This document shows, piece after piece, positions 12,636 through 28,100 of a stretch of 64,000 nt of DNA. The DNA lies in the NCBI GenBank assembly GCA_018902385.1, contig JABSSW010000013.1:310001-374000 (forward strand), in the 5' to 3' direction. Below the pieces are notes generated by a model. That model saw only the letters and a list, made by a program, of their open reading frames with translations, ran no database searches and was not told the origin of the DNA. Source of the stretch: Physcia stellaris. Lineage: Eukaryota; Ascomycota; Lecanoromycetes; Caliciales; Physciaceae. Made by a program: the position numbers and the translations under genes. Positions within the stretch are counted from its first letter, which is position 1. Every line of letters begins with the position of its first letter.

Positions 12636-14658
12636 ATGAACAGCCCTGAACTGTCGGAATTGAGCTCAGACTTGAGCTCCGTGGGCTCTCTATCACCTCC
12701 ACCAGAATATGCAACACCACCATCATCCGCAGAAGATGTAATTTCCAGCACTATCCGGGAGCAATCCCTGAAGCGTCTCCGAGACGGTGACGAGTCTCCT
12801 CCTGCAAAGAAAAGAAAGACAGCGGAGCCAAAGCCAAGAATTACCCAGCATCTGAATCTAGGCTTAAGCCCAAGCAGTCTTGCAAGCGATCAGAAAATTC
12901 AGCTTGATACTCTTCTCAAAGTGCTCCGCAAGCGCCAGAAGATTGTTGTCATTGCAGGAGCCGGCATATCTGTGTCTGCTGGCAGTATGTGTTCCCTCAA
13001 TTTGACCAAAATGTGCTAACTCGTTGCCAGTTCCTGACTTTCGTTCCGATACTGGTCTCTTCAAGATTCTGAGAGAGGAGCACAAGCTCAAAGCTTCCGG
13101 TAAACATCTATTTGACGCCTCAGTGTATCAAACAGATGCCGCGACATCCTCCTTTCATGATATGGTCCGGGGTCTCTCGGAACAAGCCACTGCTGCACAG
13201 CCCACAGCATTCCATCATTTGCTGGCAAAGCTTGCAATTGATGGTCGACTTATGCGTCTTTACACGCAGAATGTCGATGGGATCGAAACCTCAATGCCTC
13301 CTCTAGAAACCAAAGTACCATTGAGTAACAAAGGCCCATGGCCGCGGACTGTGCAATTACACGGTGGTTTGGAGAAGATGTCCTGCTCGAAGTGTCACAA
13401 CGTTTTTGACCTGGAACCCTCTCTGTTCAACGGCGCTGAAGCTCCCCCCTGTAATCATTGTGTCGAGACGGATAAGATTCGAACAGACCATGCTGGAAAG
13501 CGGAGCCATGGCATTGGGAGGCTCCGTCCAAGAATTGTACTTTACAACGAACATAACCCGGATCAAGATGCTATTGGGGCAGTCATGAAGGCTGACTTGA
13601 GGACTCGACCTGATGCAGTAATTGTTGTAGGAACTAGCATGAAAATCCCCGGAGTGAGGAGATTTGTACGAGAAGCGTGTGGTATTGTAAGAGACAGAAG
13701 AGATGGTTTGGCGGTATGGATAAACAGGGACCCACCACCGGTTGGTAAGGAATTCGAAAACTGTTGGGACTTGGTCGTGGAAGGAGACTGCGATCAAGTC
13801 GCTGCTCACGCGAACATGAGGCGGTGGGACGATACCAGCGTCGATTACCAGCAATGCACAGAGTCCGAAATGGAGAGAGCAAGGGCAAAGCATAGCGAGG
13901 TCAGAGTGATGATCGACTCACCAGCAAAGAAGATTTCGCAGTCTGCCTTGCTCACGCCAGCACCAAGCCCCGGTCAAGATCTGTTGAATTAGAAAAGCAC
14001 CGCAAGAATATCTCTCTCAAGCTCAAACCTCCGAAGACGCCAAGTATATTCAAGGCAAAAGAAACCTCCAAGACAACAGCCAAGCCCACGGCAAATGCGA
14101 AGATAACCAAAAATAAACACTCAAAAGCACCAAAGAACCAAGTCGCGAGAACGAAGGCTAAGAAAGCCTCAAAAACCTCCCTCCCTAACCTCAAGATCAA
14201 CGAAGTCTTCAAGATCTCAAAACTCCAAGCTCCACAACCTCGCAAGCCAAAAACGGTACTTCTCAGCGAAGACGACGACCTCTCCCCCGAGCAATGGCCC
14301 CCATCTCCCCTTCCGCAGCCCGCAACAACGGACCCATCCAAAAGATCCCTCCATAAAACCACCCCTCTCCAACCTCCTAGCCTCACCCACTCAACCCTCA
14401 ATCGAAAACATCCACCTCCCCGTGGCCCCCGACCATCCACTAACCAACTCAAAACGAATGTACCCAATCGTTCGCATCGGGCTCGACGAGGGCTACTTCG
14501 AACTCGGGCGCGGCCAACGGATGGGCACGCCCCTGGTGCTGGCTTCCGAGATCGACGAGCGCAGGAAGGAGAAGGCCGTGGGGCGGCTGAAGAGGCTGAG
14601 TGAGGAGATTGTGAGCCCGACTAGTATGCCCGGCGGGATGAGGGGGCTGCTGAACTGA
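12636..14658 (+). CDS. HST4: NAD-dependent histone deacetylase, HST3/HST4-type sirtuin
   Basis: Exon 1 is 12636-12984 and exon 2 starts at 13031 (46-nt intron, branch CTAAC). The class I sirtuin core is clear: AGAGISVSAG joined across the intron to IPDFRSDTG, then TQNVDGIE, VQLHGGLEKMSC, zinc ligands CSKCHNVFD and CNHC, and VVGTSMKIPG. HST3/HST4 enzymes remove H3K56 acetylation after S phase and affect genome stability and subtelomeric silencing. As read, the frame stops at 13990-13992 (436 residues). The Lys-rich tail clearly continues (VELEKHRKNISLKLKPPK) and ends at 14658 with an acidic/basic motif, if three bases are restored in or beside C runs at 13968-13971, 14298-14302 and about 14347-14352. 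That gives 659 residues and exact codon closure. The breaks are likely sequence errors. Confidence 0.9.
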
Positions 14659-15337
14659 ACTGGACTGCATTCAACTTGTTGGCACCACTGGCTGATCCTG
14701 TCATCTTTTGGGGAGGGTGAGCGGGGCGGGGAAAGTACTTTCGAGTTTGGGCGGGTGGATTCTTTCTCTTTTTCTTTCCCTTTTCCTTTTTTTCTCTTTT
14801 GGCTTTCATCACCTACCATGGAAAAGATGGAACGAATGGCGTTTTGGATGCCGACGGACCTATGTTGTGGTTCATCCCGCGGTATGCCTAGTGCAGGCTC
14901 TCGGATGGGCGGTTGGCTTTTGTCTTGGGAAAATTGTATTTCTTTCTGGTGGTATGCTCTTGGCCCTTTTCATGTCATGTAGATACCCCTACAATCGTCA
15001 GGCTTGGATGGCTAAGTGGGTTTGCGGCATTACTTAGATACCGGTGGCTTTTTCCTGCATACGTAGTATAATAACCGATTTGAATCGATGCAGGACTTTT
15101 TGGGGACATTCTTGACTTTATGTGTGAGACAAGAAAGGGGCGTGTTTGAAGGCAGAACCTCTAATCTTTTGACCACTCCCCTTTCTGTTCCCGACGGGAC
15201 GGCAGTGGGATTACGAGACATACATTAGATACATCTATGTTGATATGTCCATTGCGACCTAAGCCAACCCAAGTCTAGGATAATCGGACCCTTAACTCGG
15301 TCAGCTTCGCCGTTCACATTTCCTTTCCTCCTCCCAC
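14659..15337. other. Convergent 3' region between HST4 and uL10m
   Basis: No coding frame is supported. The segment holds a pyrimidine-rich tract (about 14759-14805), likely the HST4 3' UTR. It also contains a perfect 12-bp palindrome GAAAGTACTTTC at 14731-14742, matching the core found in the SNF2 gene introns. Confidence 0.5.
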
Positions 15338-17967: not shown

Positions 17968-18306
17968 GAGCTATTTGCTTTATCTTCAGGATTTTCCAAA
18001 CGTTTAGCGAGGAGCCTGGCGCTGGATATCCAGGCATGCTATGTTCACGAGACCTGGCTTGGAAGCCATGATCGCATGAGGATCTGTGCCGCCAGTTTTG
18101 GGATACATATCATCATTGTATTTGAAATCTCGGGTCCAAGTAGGTATCAAGAATACTATCTTGTGATACCTTCACCGTGCAAGCATACTGATTCAGACGC
18201 CTCCAACACCATGCATCATCAAAAATCCGCAATAGACCATCCCCTGTATCCTAACCTTCGTGATGCCTAGGGGTTCAGGGCCATGACATCGGCATCGTGA
18301 ACACCC
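17968..18306. other. Convergent 3' region of TRP4 and RPB12
   Basis: About 340 bp between two converging genes. No other coding or structural signal is seen. Confidence 0.5.
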
Positions 18307-18583
18307 TACCGAGCTTCAAACTGCACCATCCTATTCCCTGCCCGTTAGCCCATATAACTCACAATTTCCACCAAGGCAGGAATCACCGCTTCGTCCGCTC
18401 CTTGTACAGAACCCGATGCCCACATTCCTTGCATCGGATAGGATCGCCCTTCTTCAGCTGCACCTTCTGGTTGCAGTCGCCGCAGAGATACTGTGTGGAT
18501 GGGCCGGGGGTGTCGATTGGGATGGCGGTGCTTTGGGAAGAAGGCTGCTGCGTGGGGGGGACGTAGGATTCGCGTTGAGACAT
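18307..18583 (-). CDS. RPB12: RNA polymerase I/II/III shared subunit RPABC4 (Rpb12)
   Basis: Two exons (18583-18387 and 18331-18307) separated by a 55-nt intron give 73 residues, the normal size for this zinc-ribbon subunit. After a variable Ser/Pro/Gln-rich N-terminus comes [16 protein letters not shown], then [18 protein letters not shown], and the tiny second exon supplies the invariant tail MVQFEAR. The four Cys in two CxxC pairs bind zinc. The subunit is common to all three nuclear RNA polymerases (yeast Rpc10/Rpb12). The last exon is only 25 nt, easily missed by automatic annotation. Confidence 0.97.
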
Positions 18584-19569
18584 GACGAAGGTTTGCGGTG
18601 AGTTCGTTTGGTTTGTAGATGTTGGGTTGGTTGATGCGTAGGTGCTTTGTAGCTGGGGGCTTTGCGGAAGAATTAGGAGTTGTCGAGATGTTGGGACTTA
18701 GAAATTCTGGATTGGCACAAGAGTATTCGAAGTCTACTTGAGAACTTACGGGACTTGATGATTCGACACACGAGTTTGTTAATGAACAAGGTAAACGCCT
18801 CAAATTGCAACAGCGCTTTATCTTAGGGTTTGGGTTACCAAATATCACAGCTTTTGCCACCATCTCCGAATCACCACCCAAATCATATGAGACGGAGACG
18901 AGACTCTCGCCAAACATCATGCCGAATATCGCTGCCAATTTCCATGCTATCTAAATCTGGCTTTGGTTCATAACACTTCTAGACAATCAATCACTTCATC
19001 ATCCACAACAAAATCGGCTGTAGAGCTTTCGAGATGATCTTAATGCTGCAGAAAGAATCCTTTTTCCAGGTCGAAACAGAGCAAAAGAATTAGATTGTGC
19101 TCAATTTTGCAGAGAAAACTACAAACCGAGATGCTAACAAGATTTATTAGAGCAACCTTTGGATTATCCTTTACAAAATGAAATAACCGAGTGCAACAGC
19201 TCGATCCGCTTTTGACTACACATATTGACTATAAAGTTTTCCACAATGTCAACCTGTAGTGAAGAAATTACGACTCGATCGTAGAAGAAAATGAAAATGT
19301 TGTTCAAAAAGGAAGTATCTCTTCAAATTTTGTTATCACGTCTCTTTTCGTTCCAGATCAGACCTATTGTAGATTAGAGAACAGGTTCGCGCTCCATGTG
19401 AATGATTTCGATGTGAATGATTTTCGACGCGTCATCAAATTATCAACCTCACTTTGAACCTCGCCCTTTATCTCACATTGACTTACTTCATTTCTACTTT
19501 TACAGGTACAAGCTATCGGATCATGGCTTCCCATAAACTTTCGGCCAAGGGGCTCAGAAGACTGCAGCA
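18584..19569. other. Intergenic region between RPB12 and the SNF2-PHD gene (divergent)
   Basis: AT-rich from about 19000 on. No conserved frame is seen. A candidate 3' splice site CTTTTACAG lies at about 19498-19506, preceded by a CTTAC branch-like motif, so a 5' UTR intron of the SNF2-PHD gene is possible. An upstream ATG at 19533 (MASHKLSAKG) would reach the main frame only if one more base were restored near 19567. Confidence 0.4.
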
Positions 19570-22500
19570 ATGCAAGCTGGCAAATCTGATCCTTCTTTAA
19601 CGAAGACGTTTATCCGTCCCTACAACGAAGAGTCAGTTTGCGCAGCCTACAACGGTTATGATAACGTAGGGGAGTTCCGAAACTTCCTTGTCACTGCCCA
19701 ATTTGTGGACCGATACTTGAGATTCCGAAAGCTAGCCATCGGTTTACCCTCGAATACGATTCTCCAACTGTTACTTACAAACGAGTCAGCATATAAGGCA
19801 GTGACCACTTACGAGAACGCCAAGGTGATATGGCCTATCCAAGAAGGTCATAGACATGGGCGAGAGGATAAAGATAATAGATACCATCAAATTGCGCATC
19901 ACCTCTATCGTACCGCTGCCTGGATGCGGAACATGAGGCCTTTTGATAAACCCGACCCGGAGCAAGCTTGGCTTCAGGATGAGGCCAAAAGTAATTTTGC
20001 TGACGCAACGGAGGGCCTAATTCTACCGGATCCTGATTTCAACATCATGTTGATGCCGCAACTAGGACCTTTCCAAGGCGAGAGTGCTGTAGAGTCTTAC
20101 AACCGCGTCTTCTGTATGTTCAGATATTTCCAATACGTCTCGACTTCCAAGCACTGGAGCGTTCGCTTCAGTGGCGACACATGGCGTGAGCTGTCCTCAC
20201 TGCCGATAGAAGCCAAACCAGGATGGATGCGAACGTCGAATCAAGTACCACCGCAACCAAAGAGGCTATCGGATCTGAAGGCACTCCCAAAGATCCCACG
20301 CAAAAATTGGAAAATTCTATGGAAGAGGGGTGCAAACTTCCCCGAAAAGAAGGAATTAGATCAGCATTTAGAAGCTGCGTCGACACCTCTGCCAAGCTAC
20401 AGGCAGATACTGGACATTGACCCCCAGCTTTGCGCCGACCTGTTGCAGTGGAGAGACTGCATAAAACGACAGTACAGCTGCCTGCAGCTGGGTATGACAG
20501 TACATAGCATTCATCTCACGCATAGCCCTGAAGGGGACGACGAAGAGGTGTACAACCTCCAACAGATGGTGTGGACGAAGGTGAAAAGTACTTTCGCAGA
20601 CCTCACTGTCGAAGACGTCTTGATTACAGTCATATTCCGCAAGCTCTACGAGGGAGAAGAGATTTGGGAGAGCGAACAGCTACCGTGGGTGACACCGTCG
20701 AATTGGAACCTGCCGTCTATGCTCTCCCCCTGTTCGCTTCAATTTCCCCGGAGGAGACGATGGTATGGGAGAAGATTATGATATGGATGAGGATGACAGC
20801 ATACAAGGGAAAGCTCGGTCATGCAACACGATGACGACTTGGATACTTTTTTACCGGAACACATGGCGGGCTTGCTGACCGCGCAAGTCCGAAACCAACT
20901 GACTTTTTTGAAGCTGATGACCCCGAGTGCACCACTCACCACTCCGGACATGACGTGACGACATCTGCGGCAGCCTTATTGGATTTCCAACAGCACGCAC
21001 TAGCAGAGGTAGCTGGTGTGCCTCCACCAGCGCGTAAGCCCTCTAGGTCCAAGAACATTGGGGGCGTAGCGCTCAATGATGAGGAAGAACAAGCGCTAGA
21101 GGAGGCGATCACCGCTGGAGAATCTGCCGCTATGACACGAGAGGTAGTAGATCTATGTTGTCTGAGGTGAAAGTACTTTTCGCTGAGCTTTTTATACAGG
21201 AGGTCGAGGAGAAAGATCGCGCTGCAGACGATACATTATACTATCAGATTCAAGGAGCATTTGAGGGAACCCCAGCACAAGTAGGTCCGCCAGTAGACCT
21301 GTCCATCACCATCCTCGGTATGAAGCAACTGGAAAATGGTCGATACACTTGTACTCTGCTTGAAGGGTTCACAAAGTCGGAGTTTTACAATTTCCAGGTC
21401 AGTGGGGCAGCCGACATGTGTTTGAAGACCTACGGTGAGGTTCCGTTGCCGCAAGAACATAAAGCCAAAAAGGCTGTTAAAAAGGCTTTCAAACATTGGC
21501 CTAAAAGGCTGCAAATATTCGGAGGAATTCTACGAGACGAGACTGGTCTCGGGAAGACCAAACAGACTCTGCTGATGCTCGCCCTCTATGCGAAATACGG
21601 CAAGGTCACCCATGACCTGCCTATTCTAATCATCGTTCCTGCTACATTGATAAAGCAGTGGGCGAAAGAGATTCGAGAGATGTGGCCCGGCTTTACACTG
21701 TGGTTTTGCTACGCCTCGGACGACCTGCTGGCTGTGCAAATGCCGAATGTCATCACGACTTCGCATCTAAAAAGCTTGCCGAATTTGAGCGGCCTGCCTG
21801 TTCATATGCAAAAACTCTTCGACAAGAGCAGTGGTAAAGGAATTAACATCGTCCTTTCGTCGTACGAAACGTGGAGCGAAAGAACAGTATGGCAGGAAGT
21901 CGTTACCAGCGTGAACCAAAAGGGTGAGACGCTGAAACATAAGGAGCATCGCAGCAGAGTTACCGGGCTGTTTGGACACGTTATTATCGACGAAGGTCAC
22001 CGGGCCAAGAATCGAGAGACTCGCATCCACGCCAGTATCTTGTTGCTGGCGGCGATCTATTGTTGGGTGATCACAGCGACCCCCATGCAGAACTCTGAGA
22101 TGGTGAGCTCCTCCAAAAGTACTTTTCGTCTCGGCCACTGACTCATTGATACTGTAGGACATACTCGGTCTCTTGGAGCTTCTATGGAAGTGCGTAAAAC
22201 ACAGTTTACAAGACCTGAGCCAAGAGGATCTGGAATGGATCAAAACCCATCGCTCCAGGGATGTGCTGAAGGAGCTAGAAGAACTGCCACAACTTGACAA
22301 GCGACGGCTGATCGCTTTAGACCACCAGCGGGTGGAGAGGATTCTTCGAGACGCGAGGAAGAACAAGGTCAGAATTGCGCAACAGTTCCACGTAATCGAG
22401 GACCTATGTGTCCTATCAAGGTCGTCCTCCTCCGTCCTACCTGTACACTCACGAAACGCATCACCAATTCGTCTACGTGATATGGTGAAGAAGCATCATG

Positions 22501-24843
22501 TTAGAACGATAGCGCCCACAAGAAACGACCGAGAGGAAGCCGAGTATCAACTCTATCATCTCGATGCTGCGCGGTAAGAGTGATATATCTCTCAAAAGTA
22601 CTTTTCACCGCTGACCAAGTATAGTCGCTACATTCAGGAAATGAGGAACCAGATGAAGAAAAACATCAAGAGAAAGGGACCGTCCCGTCCAGGCTATCTT
22701 CATAATGTTTTCTTGCCCGTGGTCCCTTTGCGGGACTTGATGATCTGCAATTTCTCTGTTATACTCGGCAGATTGAACGCAGCTCTCAAAGCGAGGGGTA
22801 AAGATACTTACGTCAAGTCGATCGCCAGTTGGAGAGACATCAAGCTCTCGGCGGTCGACATCATCCACGCAACATGGCGCGACGGAGATCTCCCTATAGG
22901 AACAAGAGTCGAACAATTGAGCTATTTAACTTACGGCTCCCCGCCCTCAAATTTACGATGCACTTAGTGCATAAAGTGACATTGAAGGATTCGACCGCGT
23001 CAGGACATAGAAAGCTTTTGCTCGGCGAAGCACTTCCCATTTCCGCATGGTACACAGCTTTGGTGCTCGAACATGCATACATTAACGTAGCAGTGGTGCA
23101 TGCTGGCCTAACACAAACCGAAAGATCGACTTTAGGAGAGAAGTTCAATGACCCTCAAAGCGACATTCAAGTCCTTATCCTATTGGCCGACGTATCTATT
23201 GTTGGCCTCAATCTTAACCTTGCCTGTTCTACTGTGTTCATAATGACGATTCTCAGAAATCTGGCACAGGAGATACAACTATGGGGCCGGATTATAAGGG
23301 TAGGCGCTCCTGAGCAAAAGTACTTTTGCGGCACACTGACCTACGCAGATAACCTCCACAGAAGAAGTCTCTGTCTATCGGAAGCACACTCCAAACTCTC
23401 ACGACGATTACCGTGCGTATAGACAGGAGGATAAAGTAGGTGTAGAGCTAGCGACGAAGGCGTATCAGCCTCAGGTCCGCAGCCTTCTAGTAAGACTGCT
23501 CAACGAACATCAAAATGAAGTGAGGGAGGCCCATGATTCGATGGAAGGACAGGAATACATGGCAAAGATGGAAGACTCGTTGCAACCGCAATTAGAAAGC
23601 ACCGACAAGGAGATTGTCTCCGAGTATCAAGCTCATACCACGCCTCGGAATCGTCAGGCTCCCGATCGGTTCAATATCATGGCGTACGACAAGCATGGAC
23701 GGCCAAAAATCCAATTGAATGAGAGCGATTATCAGTGCTACGAATGCCACGCGGGTGTAGACGACGAAGATGCCGTGGAATGCAGTTCGTGCCACGAATG
23801 GTTTCACCTTCTATGTGTAGGACTACAACGACAGCCCAAAAGTGGTTTCGAGTGTGCCTACTGTGTGGAAGACGATGGACTAGCGGAGGAAGCTAGCTCG
23901 GGCAAAGGTGGAAGCGCTAATGACAAAGACTATCAGTCAGACTCTCACTCAGACTCTAAAGAGGACGACACGGACGACAGCTCGCGCCTGAGTCAATCGG
24001 ATGACGAGGCAGAAACGAATCCTTTCAAATTCTTCACCGAAGTAGACGCCCGACAGTTTCAAAGCGAGCTACAAGCAGATGACACAGAAGCCACGTTAGA
24101 ATACCTGCTCAAACAACCCTATGACAAGACCTACCAAGATGAGGATCTCGAAGATGAGATCGTCCTCCAACGAGCGCTACGACTGCTATATGCCGCCCGA
24201 ACGGGAGAAGGAAAACTCCGCGAAAAACCGTCCATCCATATCAAGTACACCCATATATCAAGTGATAAGGCCACAATGATCAAGGACGAAATGGATTCTT
24301 TACATCAGGATCTACTAAAGTTCTTAAACCCCGAAGAGTAAGCTAATATGAGCAAAAGTACTTTTCACTGCTAACCTATCTCAGCTCGACCCCACCGCCC
24401 CTGAATATCTTCAATCCCAAGAAGTCTACCCCTGAAAAGGAGTCCGATAATGAACTCAGATCTAGCGCTCAGGAGAGGCCTGTGGCTGAGCAGGTGTCCC
24501 GTGATGAATCACGTTCTAGCAGTGAGGAGGAGCCCGCCGCTGCTGAGGAGCCCGTTGCAGAGATCAAGGGCCGGAAGCGCAAGGGGAAGGACAAAAGAAG
24601 GAAAAGCTCAAGCGCAAGAGTGAGGATGAGCCTGCCGCTGCTGAGGAGCCCGTTGCTGAGATCAAGAGTCGGAAGCGCATGAGGAAGGACAAGAAGAGGG
24701 AAAAGCGCAAGAGTGAGGATGAGGAGGCAGAGATGGAGCCTGCCGCTGCTGAGGAGCCCGTTGCTGAGATCAAGAAACAGAAGCGCAAGAGGCAGGGCAA
24801 GAAGAAGAGCAAGGGCAAGAATAGGGCAGAGGCAGAGTCGTAG
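19570..24843 (+). CDS. Large SNF2-family ATPase with PHD finger; palindrome-bearing introns
   Basis: Six exons (19570-21143, 21200-22102, 22158-22573, 22625-23299, 23349-24337, 24385-24843). The first ~500 residues have no domain I recognise. Then comes a SNF2 helicase core: motif I DETGLGKTKQT, motif Ia IIVPATLIKQW, motif II IIDEGHRAKN (Rad54/CSB-like), motif III ITATPMQN, then HAGLTQTER, VGLNLNLAC and motif VI QEIQLWGRIIR. A C4HC3 PHD finger follows (CYECHAGVDDEDAVECSSC, WFHLLC, CAYC), then an acidic region and three Lys/Glu repeats. Such proteins remodel chromatin, the PHD reading histone tails; here that is inference. Six single-base deficits (about 20685, 20740, 20819, 20952, 22935, 24592) must be restored, giving 1673 residues with exact closure. 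Four of these cluster in 270 bp outside long homopolymers, so partial decay cannot be excluded. Confidence 0.85.
21144..21199 (+). repeat. Intron 1 of SNF2-PHD gene with palindrome AAAGTACTTT
   Basis: 56-nt GT/AG intron. The palindrome AAAGTACTTT (21170-21179, within GAAAGTACTTTTC) ends 20 nt before the intron end. Confidence 0.8.
22103..22157 (+). repeat. Intron 2 of SNF2-PHD gene with palindrome AAAAGTACTTTT
   Basis: 55-nt GT/AG intron. The 12-bp palindrome is at 22115-22126, followed by CACTGACTC (branch site) and CTGTAG. Confidence 0.85.
22574..22624 (+). repeat. Intron 3 of SNF2-PHD gene with palindrome AAAAGTACTTTT
   Basis: 51-nt GT/AG intron. The palindrome is at 22594-22605, followed by CACCGCTGACC (branch) and TATAG. 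Its 3' half closely resembles intron 5. Confidence 0.85.
23300..23348 (+). repeat. Intron 4 of SNF2-PHD gene with palindrome AAAAGTACTTTT
   Basis: 49-nt GT/AG intron. The palindrome is at 23316-23327, preceded by GAGC as in intron 5 and followed by CACACTGACC (branch) and GCAG. Splicing restores the SNF2 frame RIIRITSTEEVSVYR. Confidence 0.85.
24338..24384 (+). repeat. Intron 5 of SNF2-PHD gene with palindrome AAAAGTACTTTT
   Basis: 47-nt GT/AG intron. The palindrome is at 24354-24365, followed by CACTGCTAACC (branch) and CTCAG. Confidence 0.85.
24530..24774 (+). repeat. Tandem coding repeats at the SNF2-PHD C-terminus
   Basis: A 39-bp block encoding EPAAAEEPVAEIK recurs at about 24530, 24628 and 24736, each followed by a Lys/Arg-rich spacer. 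The periods are 98 and 108 bp. The 98-bp period is one short of 33 codons, matching the one-base frame break inferred at the AAAA run near 24592. Confidence 0.85.
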
Positions 24844-25196
24844 TTTCACGATGCTGTGTGGGCTTGTTACGAACACGCATACGAGTCATATAGCTATGCT
24901 GTGGAAATTACAGAACTCGTCGAGTCTGCTTCTACCTAAATGAAATTTTTTTCGTGAGATTTGCATAATCGCTGGTTTTTTTGCGCGAATTGGAGCCTTC
25001 CCCTCGATTTAATCGGATACGTACCTTAGTGTGACCATTATATTCCTGCCGTTTGCCTACTTCACCTCGAGTCAATTATTTCTCGAACACTCATAAACCT
25101 GCATACGTCTAGTTGTGTGGCTCTTGAGCTTCTAGGTCAAGATGATCCATAAATTTTGCTACCTCTCATCAAGCTTCTCTCGAGTTTAATTATAAT
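24844..25196. other. Intergenic region between SNF2-PHD gene and MED16
   Basis: About 350 bp, T-rich. It serves as 3' end of one gene and promoter of the next; no other feature is seen. Confidence 0.5.
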
Positions 25197-28100
25197 ATGC
25201 CACTGATCATGGAGCACGATCTTGATGATCTTTTTGGCGATGCTCATTCTCTATCTCTCCCACGACCATTACCTAAAGGGCTAGCACAGCGTGTGGACGA
25301 ATTACGTCTGGGAGGCTGTCGCCAGTATGTGCCTCGCCCTGCTTCATCTACAGTCCCCCATGGTCTGAAATCGTCCGCAGAAGGATAGCCTGGTCCAGGC
25401 TGGGATGCATTGCCTATATATCCGGGGATGGCCGGGGTATATGCAGTCGTCATTTGTTTTGCAAGCCAACCGATGGACAATGGACCTTGAGTGAAGAACT
25501 ACCTATCGACGGTGTTTCCGCTGTCCATGGCGGTGTTTCGTTGGTCAATATATCCTGGAATCATCAAGGCAGTGAGCTAGCTGTCTTCGACTGCCTAGGC
25601 AAGGTTTCGATTCTCTCTGTAATCGTCAATCTTTGTGAATTCTCAGTGCCTAAGAAATGTGTGCTCGATTCAGAGGATAATCTGAACGAGGTTGTTGGGC
25701 TCTTGTGGCTCAATACTGACAAGCCGGTAAACCCTTATCGGGGCGTACAATGGGCAATGACCATGCTTACGACAGCAGCTATCATTTCATCCGCCGGCAC
25801 AAAAGAAGGATGGGCAATGGAACTTCTCGCCTCAACAGCACAAGGCACTGGGTCCTAGTAACCCTGTTGGCGGTATGTCGGCTTTAGTCACAGTAACTAA
25901 GGGAGCCGTCATTCGTGTACTTTTTCAAGGCCAAGATCGGGCGTGGCACCAGTCAAGAGCAGAGATAGAGAAAATCACTTGTCCATCCGAGCTCGTTCTG
26001 CACGCTACTCTATGTGCTCATAGAGGTAGGCTCTGTACATGGGTCTCAAGACTTGGGCTTACATTATGATCAGATAGTACAATGCTTCTAGCAACTCATA
26101 CTTCAGGACAACAGATCTTGCTGTATCGTGTCACATTCAACTTCCAACGACTGGCTTTCGATATCCAACATCTTAAGACTTTAAATGATTGCTTTCCAAA
26201 GGCTGTCAACTCAAGTAACTCCGAATCAAGTGCAAGTTATACCGATGGTCAATTGACACATCTCGAGTATTTCCCCCAAGGACCGGAAAACCGCAAGGGG
26301 GATCCTTCGCGGCCTTTTGTCCTTGCGTCCTTCACAAACCTTCCAGACCCCAGATCTAATGGAGTTGGTCAAGAGCCGTATAGCGTTGTCTGCAGGTGGG
26401 ATCTACATAGTACGAAGCCAAGAATACACTCCCAATTTGAGCAATTATCGAAGAAGTCCACCAACTCTTCTCCCGACCTTGGTGTATGTATATGTACCTT
26501 TTTTTTTTCAATGTGGCAAATCTAAGCTGTCAGACTAGACCGAGGTTACTGTGAAAAGACTGCCAGACACGTTCATCCCTAAAATTTTCCTCTCTGTCCA
26601 GCAACTGCAGCTGAGCACTATTTTGGCAATCGCCTACAGTGACGGTAGCATCGAGGTCAGGGATAGGCTTACAATGGAAATTGTTCAACAGGACAATGTC
26701 TTGGAGCAGGTCTCAGGCCTAGGTCAGATCGGTTTCGAATTCCCACAAGAACATCAATGTAAGCAGAACGAATGATCAATGCCACAAGATATTTGTGTAC
26801 CTGACCATCTCAGACCTCAACATTGCTCTATCTCCAAATGCTTGCGCCGCAGTATCCATGGCAGACACTACCGATATGCACCTGGGACTCATACAAATGC
26901 CACTCCAAGATGGCACTGAGTCGCTTCCGAGCTGTGATTGGACCTATCCTCCATTCTATTCTGACCTTCCTGCTGATTACATATAGCGTTTCACGAAGCG
27001 GCTACTGAAGCGTTTGCATTACACTTCTCTACAGCCTGCTCAAGCCACGGTAATTATCAAGACGATCTGATCGCAGTAATTCAACTATTTTCCAAACAGC
27101 ACCCTGACGGCAACACCCAGCGAGACTTTCTGAGTGAAATCTACCGAGTCCTTGAAGTCCGCTTGGATCATTCCTTGGAATCTCATCCGGACTATCTATT
27201 TAAGAGTCCGATGGTACAGCGATGTCTCGGGATGCAACTCTCGCTAGGCTCATCAGGCGAACGACATCCTCGACCATTGCCCGCGAAGATTGCTCAAGCA
27301 TTCCTTGACGTTAGGTCAGTTACATTGATTCTGACTTATACACTCAAAAGCATAGCTGGAGGCGCCAATCACGAGAGTGACCGAAAGAAACAACAGGAAA
27401 TCGACGCAAGGAAATCGGGTATAGCACCCTACCTGTACATGACTGACCGGTGCTGCTCATCAAGCTGACGCGCACTAGAGGATCTTCAATCTGTGACAGG
27501 CCTGATATTATGGTGTATCTCTTTGATGGGCTACATCGTCGACGATCTCTTCCAACTCAGCGACTCAATGCGCGAACACGGCTCAATGGACGTCAACCAC
27601 CTGAACACCCTCAGTAAGTCCCATACTCCTCACCAAGCCCCCTAATCTCCCTCCATCACCTCACCCACTCCCCCATCTCAACCACGGCCAAAAACTGACT
27701 GCCCACCCCCACGGCAGTCTCAAACTCCACCAGCCCCTCCCTCCCCCTCCTCTTCATCTCCTCCTCCCGCACCTTCATCCGCTACCTCTCGCGCTACCTC
27801 CGCCAACTAACAGCCGACGCCTACGCCGCCCAAAACCTACTCCCCCTCGCGCCCGCCTTCGCATGCATAGCGTCCATCCTGAAAGACGCCCCGCTCCCGA
27901 TCCACACCTTCGACAAACTCCTCTCCGAGCTCGACGCCGGCATCAAGGCCGCGTACCAAGCCTCCGGCACCGGCGAGACCGAGCGGAAAAGCACGGAGAA
28001 GGCGATGCTGGTCTCGGGACTCGTCCCTGGCGTGCTGGCGCCTGCTGTGGAGGGGCTGTTGGGCGCGAGCGGGACGGTGGTGGGGTTGAGGGCTGGTGGG

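Follow-up and report, generated by a model that had tools for sequence, protein, structure and literature searches.

The symmetrical sister (stw)introns of the Hypoxylaceae share a central 10-nt palindrome (TTTCTAGAAA); the 93-nt cropped intron forms an imperfect inverted repeat whose arms measure 45-55 nt, overall similarity is high, and 10 cropped introns and 23 stwintrons are reported (PMC8469720). Introners, by published criteria, comprise at least four similar introns whose likeness is not due to paralogous genes and reaches near both splice boundaries, and fungal introners are stated to lack terminal repeats (PMC9860276). A system of another kind is the Mer1 intronic splicing enhancer of budding yeast, whose motif AUACCCUU marks the introns of four genes (PMC6380292).

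We analysed a stretch of 64,000 nucleotides of Physcia stellaris DNA (hereafter, the window; C13:310001-374000 in an assembly that spans 44 Mb over 147 contigs), in which genes with Pfam matches include Tim54 and a NatA subunit. Such genes, together with short GT..CTRAC..AG introns, are in keeping with a filamentous fungus. An SNF2-PHD gene was delimited from open frames, a coding-frame scan, Pfam matches and copy number, with the following features:

19523..24843, forward strand: SNF2-PHD gene, approximate extent from first candidate ATG to last stop
21144..21199, forward strand: predicted intron 1, 56 nt, GT..AG, frame 1 to 0
22103..22157, forward strand: predicted intron 2, 55 nt, GTGAGC..CTGAC..TAG, frame 0 to 1
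22574..22624, forward strand: predicted intron 3, 51 nt, GTAAGA..CTGAC..TAG, frame kept (1-1)
23300..23348, forward strand: predicted intron 4, 49 nt, GTAGGC..CTGAC..CAG, frame 0 to 1
24338..24384, forward strand: predicted intron 5, 47 nt, GTAAGC..CTAAC..CAG, frame 1 to 0
21512..22096, forward strand: SNF2-related ATPase domain (Pfam PF00176, 5.3e-27)
23066..23305, forward strand: Helicase_C domain (Pfam PF00271, 8.7e-9)
23736..23864, forward strand: PHD finger (Pfam PF00628, 3e-5)

The three domains lie in this order in separate exon stretches, each above its own Pfam cut-off, and the gene is by its domain content an SNF2 family ATPase with a PHD finger; the Helicase_C match extends into intron 4 by six bases, since the scan was run on unspliced sequence. 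Intron lengths modulo 3 agree with the frame changes (1-0, 0-1, 1-1, 0-1 and 1-0, in our reading of the frame scans), and the reading frames support the five introns as predicted. SNF2 motif VI has the pattern GRxxRxGQxxxVxVYR, and removal of intron 4 joins GRIIR to ITSTEEVSVYRK, a spacing that we take to fit this motif. At both the protein and the DNA level the gene is single copy in the genome; its ATPase part has only two other protein matches, both to distant genes (identity 28 and 30%).

All five introns contain the 10-bp core AAAGTACTTT of a palindrome, four of them within the full 12-mer AAAAGTACTTTT, at the places where the first-pass annotation had put them. Two further sites in the N-terminal open frame, at 19987 and 20584, had been missed:

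19987..19998: near-copy E1, AAAAGTAATTTT, one mismatch, in the N-terminal open frame, with TGAGGCC before and GCTGAC after
20584..20595: copy E2, AAAAGTACTTTC, one mismatch, in the N-terminal open frame, followed by GCAGACC
21169..21180: copy I1, GAAAGTACTTTT, one mismatch to the 12-mer, in intron 1
22115..22126: copy I2, AAAAGTACTTTT, in intron 2
22594..22605: copy I3, AAAAGTACTTTT, in intron 3
23316..23327: copy I4, AAAAGTACTTTT, in intron 4
24354..24365: copy I5, AAAAGTACTTTT, in intron 5

The distance from the 12-mer to the intron end is 19, 31, 19, 21 and 19 nt in introns 1 to 5, in line with the 19-21 nt noted earlier for four of the five, and CTRAC lies downstream of the core in introns 2-5 (CTGAG in intron 1); both likenesses previously seen beyond the palindrome are present: introns 3 and 5 have CACNGCTRACC, and in introns 4 and 5 GAGC precedes the core. 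The N-terminal frame is open and best-scoring in the coding-frame scan at both E1 and E2, and the peptides encoded there are alike (KSTFADLT and KSNFADAT), so that the likeness of the two DNA sites may lie partly at the protein level. Because E1 and E2 fall in an open frame, and because a further site of the window starts at 14731, the palindrome is not restricted to introns. This further site (GAAAGTACTTTC, 14731-14742) is perfectly palindromic over its 12 bp, shares the 10-bp core, has 2 mismatches to the 12-mer, and lies some 130 bp past the end of the open frame 13896-14603.

That this arrangement is due to chance or artefact is scarcely credible: the window contains AAAGTACTTT 7 times, shuffled windows on average 0.05 times, and not one of 100 shuffles reached 7, which bears out the earlier judgement that chance is negligible. 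Within one mismatch, the 12-mer is found 142 times in 44 Mb and seven times in the 5.3 kb gene, where 0.017 would be expected, and five of these seven copies fall in the introns, which account for 258 of the gene's 5318 bases (binomial 5e-6). What can be said for chance is that the genome-wide count of AAAGTACTTT, 40 in 44 Mb, differs little from the 42 that equal base frequencies would give; the word is therefore ordinary, and its clustering is not. The genome search that the first-pass annotation called for also led us to reject a general intron motif, given only these 40 cores and a single AGTACT in 4009 bases of predicted control introns without AAGTACTT, about the rate in the sample.

The earlier suggestion that the palindrome is confined to this gene did not hold, since exons carry copies too, as does a second gene that lies some 30 kb upstream on the minus strand of L006 (C13:298.5-300.3 kb), with 29.7 kb between the nearest copies of the two genes. 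There, two introns of 52 nt with identical sequence, 157 bp from each other, contain AAAAGTACTTTGGTGGCTGACC, and frame changes (0-1-2) support their status as introns. A variant, AAAAGTAGTTTCTGACC, lies within a 57-nt GT..AG stretch that may be a third intron, although an uninterrupted frame across the stretch makes this doubtful. One more copy (L006 3583) sits in an open frame, and two other GT..AG introns, in our reading, are without the core. The surrounding region (L006 2900-6000 minus; C13:297.9-301.0 kb) contains tandem repeats of 99 bp and 69 bp, and an exon there is duplicated in tandem together with an intron. None of the four pieces of the second gene that were scanned gave a Pfam match above cut-off, its product appears zinc-finger-like by eye only, and the protein pieces of the two genes matched each other with a best E of 0.019. 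The core is found in seven introns of two unrelated genes, two of these introns being identical by duplication, and they are alike only around the core.

The two genes also hold nearly all of the genome's matches to the core followed by CTRACC, a pattern that the first-pass annotation had not picked up: AAAGTANTTTN{0,11}CTRACC has seven matches, of which three are in the SNF2-PHD gene (3/7 of its copies), three in the second gene and one on C4, and the reversed control has 5. The reversed palindrome, TTTCATGAAA, has 471 genome copies, about eleven times the equal-frequency expectation; among 14 of the 471 sites that were fetched (e.g., L057, L059, L064, L065), 8 lie in 18-32% GC and 6 in 39-51% GC, and we rejected it as a second intron palindrome when no intron was recognised among the 14 by eye. 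The reversed word being a poor control for that pattern, shuffles, control sites and control introns were relied on instead. Two looser patterns, AAGTACTTN{0,16}CTRACC (9 genome matches, 5 of them in the two genes; control 22) and AAAGTACTTTTNNYNGCTRACC with at most 2 mismatches (5 matches, 2 of them in the SNF2-PHD gene; control 8), complete a comparison in which the counts against controls give no genome-wide enrichment, and what stands out is the concentration of matches in two neighbouring genes. The clustering of the palindrome is real and non-random, and it is concentrated in these two genes; any mechanism behind it is putative.

When all 40 genomic core sites were read quickly by eye with their flanks, C4:159957 (GGCTGACCCAGGCACAG) was the only one outside the two C13 genes that appeared intron-like. 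The element at C4:159945 (L011 2987-3010 minus; TAAAGTACTTTTGCTGGCTGACCCAGGCACAG) lies, in our reading, upstream of an alcohol-dehydrogenase-like gene and may be a similar intron in a 5'-UTR. Matches to AAGTACTT..CTRACC on C8, C34 and C46 were not intron-like by eye and were rejected as further members. A model built from eight copies (R1) found nothing beyond the known sites in the 105 kb searched, and scans of the viral_contigs collection yielded no relatives. Elsewhere, AATTGTACAA occurs six times in L029 1871-5619, in two groups with a spacing of about 200 bp inside each, and is possibly a repeat.

Set against the published systems, the predicted Physcia introns resemble the Hypoxylaceae sister introns in being spliceosomal introns of a filamentous fungus with a common central palindrome, and differ from them in being 47-56 nt long, without inverted arms, alike mainly in the core and present in two or three genes. 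When arms were compared with their own reverse complements, none of the five introns exceeded the 95% level of 71 control introns, and terminal inverted repeats of the Hypoxylaceae type were accordingly not found; because fungal introners are stated to lack such repeats (PMC9860276), this result speaks only against the Hypoxylaceae type and not against introners generally. With the introners and introner-like elements of Dothideomycetes (PMC4457414, PMC9860276), the locus shares a common sequence in several introns of unrelated genes, and by number (at least four introns) the set would qualify, but here it is mainly the interior that is common, and exons carry copies too. The longest common stretches of introns 1-5 are interior, and since the likeness falls short of the splice ends, these introns are not introners in the published sense (PMC9860276).

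The palindrome looks either like a signal particular to the gene or like what is left of copied introns after wear, and the sequence around it bears on both. On the right side, introns 3 and 5 have 22 of 24 nt in common; on the left side, introns 4 and 5 have 17 exact nt in common, and introns 2 and 3 share CTC(T)C plus the palindrome. With the palindrome masked, 3/10 pairs among introns 1-5 (3/21 when the two L006 introns are added) lie at the 5% level of control introns, and, anchored at the palindrome, the intron set is more alike than 68 predicted control introns (p ~0.01). These control introns were drawn by a splice-signal regular expression and not from annotation (75 for the masked-pair test; 71 for the anchored and arm tests, 68 of them usable in the anchored one), and some are therefore false. 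Gapped flank likeness reached a score that none of 5000 sets of chance sites attained, the controls here being chance sites and not introns. Without gaps, the flanks of introns 1-5 agree at 8.9 of 30 places, and those of introns 2-5, whose cores are identical, at 8.8, against 7.5 expected at 31 chance sites (p 0.05 and 0.11, respectively; the values become 0.0035 and 0.0075 if the outermost letters of the 12-mer are included in the flanks, and those without them are used).

Short words accompany the core as well, on either side and in exonic copies as in intronic ones. A CTRA(C/G)-like word (AGAC/TGAC in the exonic copies) follows it within 16 nt in 6/7 gene copies, intron 2 having it further on, against 2/62 for words of the same type in the control (31 unrelated genomic sites, both orientations). 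TGAG or TGAC precedes the core within 12 nt in 5/7 gene copies (I1, I2, I4, I5 and E1, not I3 or E2) and in the two duplicate introns of the second gene, against 3/62 controls; the copy at L006 3583 has neither flank word. These words were picked after looking, and the alternative CWGAC was chosen so as to include E2.

Because the likeness is gapped and different pairs have different parts in common, the introns may descend from an old common source and have since undergone small insertions and deletions. Under such an origin, a short element, some 30 nt long and centred on the palindrome, would have multiplied locally in both genes, exonic copies included, and then diverged by insertions and deletions; the shared stretches, the flank words and the gapped likeness all point this way, and proliferating introns with a central 10-nt palindrome have a published precedent in the Hypoxylaceae (PMC8469720). 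We nonetheless regard this origin as somewhat unlikely: the likeness stops short of the splice ends; there is no wider family, the three patterns having 9, 5 and 7 genome matches against 22, 8 and 5 in controls; outside the two genes only C4:159945 is intron-like by eye; and neutral decay does not readily give a perfect core in four copies with near-random ungapped flanks. Four identical cores amid such flanks are most simply read as a sign of constraint on the core, and the preservation of the core while its flanks are scrambled suggests as much from the sequence. Of the two possibilities that the first-pass annotation had offered, a functional site is for this same reason the better supported, whereas multiplication of introners fails in its end-to-end form and survives as the old common origin just described, to which the gapped likeness and the flank words, found also beside exonic copies, lend room.

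We therefore favour, tentatively, a putative symmetric recognition site that serves the joint handling of the SNF2-PHD gene's introns. The 12-bp palindrome would be a two-fold-symmetric site spread over the gene body, with one copy per intron and two in the intron-poor N-terminal exon, usually placed a few bases upstream of the branch site and within a looser unit that often has TGAG before it and a CTRAC-like word after it. Selection would keep the core; a symmetric (dimeric) nucleic-acid-binding factor would recognise it on the gene or the nascent RNA; and, bound next to the branch site, this factor could control the joint removal of all these introns, in the way that yeast Mer1 acts through its enhancer. 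The locus matches the Mer1 regulon on the sequence side, with a short motif common to otherwise different introns (here 5/5), a likeness qualified by flanks that are near random when ungapped and not wholly so when gapped. It is unlike Mer1 in that AUACCCUU is non-palindromic and marks four genes, whereas the motif here is palindromic, occurs once per intron within one gene, is also exonic and would be read by a factor that is itself putative. Observations that count against the recognition site include these: a purely splicing role leaves the exonic copies unexplained, the gapped flank likeness fits common descent as well or better, and the second gene's exonic copy at L006 3583 is without either flank word. 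Literature searches that covered few subscription papers found no account of the site itself: the 12-mer is contained in four papers that appear unrelated from their titles, the 10-mer as a whole word in none, and combining the palindrome theme with SNF2 gave only work on a plant ubiquitin ligase.

The seven copies of the SNF2-PHD gene are separated by gaps of 597, 585, 946, 479, 722 and 1038 bp, a spacing more even than that of random placements with fixed ends (CV 0.28, P 0.005), which leans to a site read on the whole gene or the nascent transcript and not on spliced RNA. The spacing, the perfect two-fold symmetry and the exonic copies would also suit a dimer site that acts as DNA and has nothing to do with splicing, in a fairly even gene-body array for chromatin or transcription control that occupies introns only because introns are free to vary. 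We consider this array unlikely, in that it leaves the link to CTRACC unexplained and in that the flanking intervals 18000-19523 and 24841-26000, which are largely free to vary, hold no copy with fewer than three mismatches.

Pairing at the RNA level is less probable still. The first-pass annotation had raised an RNA hairpin; a local one in each intron is a weak proposal, given that predicted folds differ between introns. Self-complementary sites could instead let any two introns pair and loop out the exon between them, and the predicted duplex of two copies (-10.2 kcal/mol) and the fact that the adjacent variants E2 and I1 are exact reverse complements of each other are compatible with this. 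However, E2 and I1 are the single such pair of variants, the differing local folds weigh here too, and all copies can pair with all others, so that the pairing would have no specificity.

The condition of the genes bears on whether any such role is current. In the coding-frame scan the SNF2-PHD gene appears to change frame about six times where no intron can be recognised (near 20.65, 20.73, 20.80, 20.88, 22.91 and 24.57 kb), with one further possible change near 19.54 kb, all in the same direction in our reading, and the second gene has at least one such change by eye; long open frames nearby are intact (444, 728, 481 and 491 aa with Pfam matches, 584 aa without). Both genes may be decaying, or the assembly may contain local errors. 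The apparently broken frame weakens any claim of present function, and if the gene is decaying, the palindrome need not act today; because the changes near 20.6-20.9 kb are unexplained, the count of five as all of the gene's introns depends on the gene model. In that interval, E2 at 20584 is the only copy with at most two mismatches.

We tentatively place the recognition site first, worn introner-like copies second and a splicing-independent DNA array third. A bolder form of the recognition site, which we put forward as improbable, is a gene-private splicing code, in which a symmetric site in every recognised intron of a remodeller gene, and present also in a neighbour, would let a single dimeric factor switch all introns of that gene on or off together, possibly in dependence on the remodeller itself. 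With its five small introns sharing one 12-bp core, its two exonic copies and its neighbour gene, the SNF2-PHD gene would allow a clean test of whether short fungal introns carry gene-specific signals or are worn copies of mobile introns. Either outcome would be informative: an intron code particular to individual genes, or a very small, local burst of introners.
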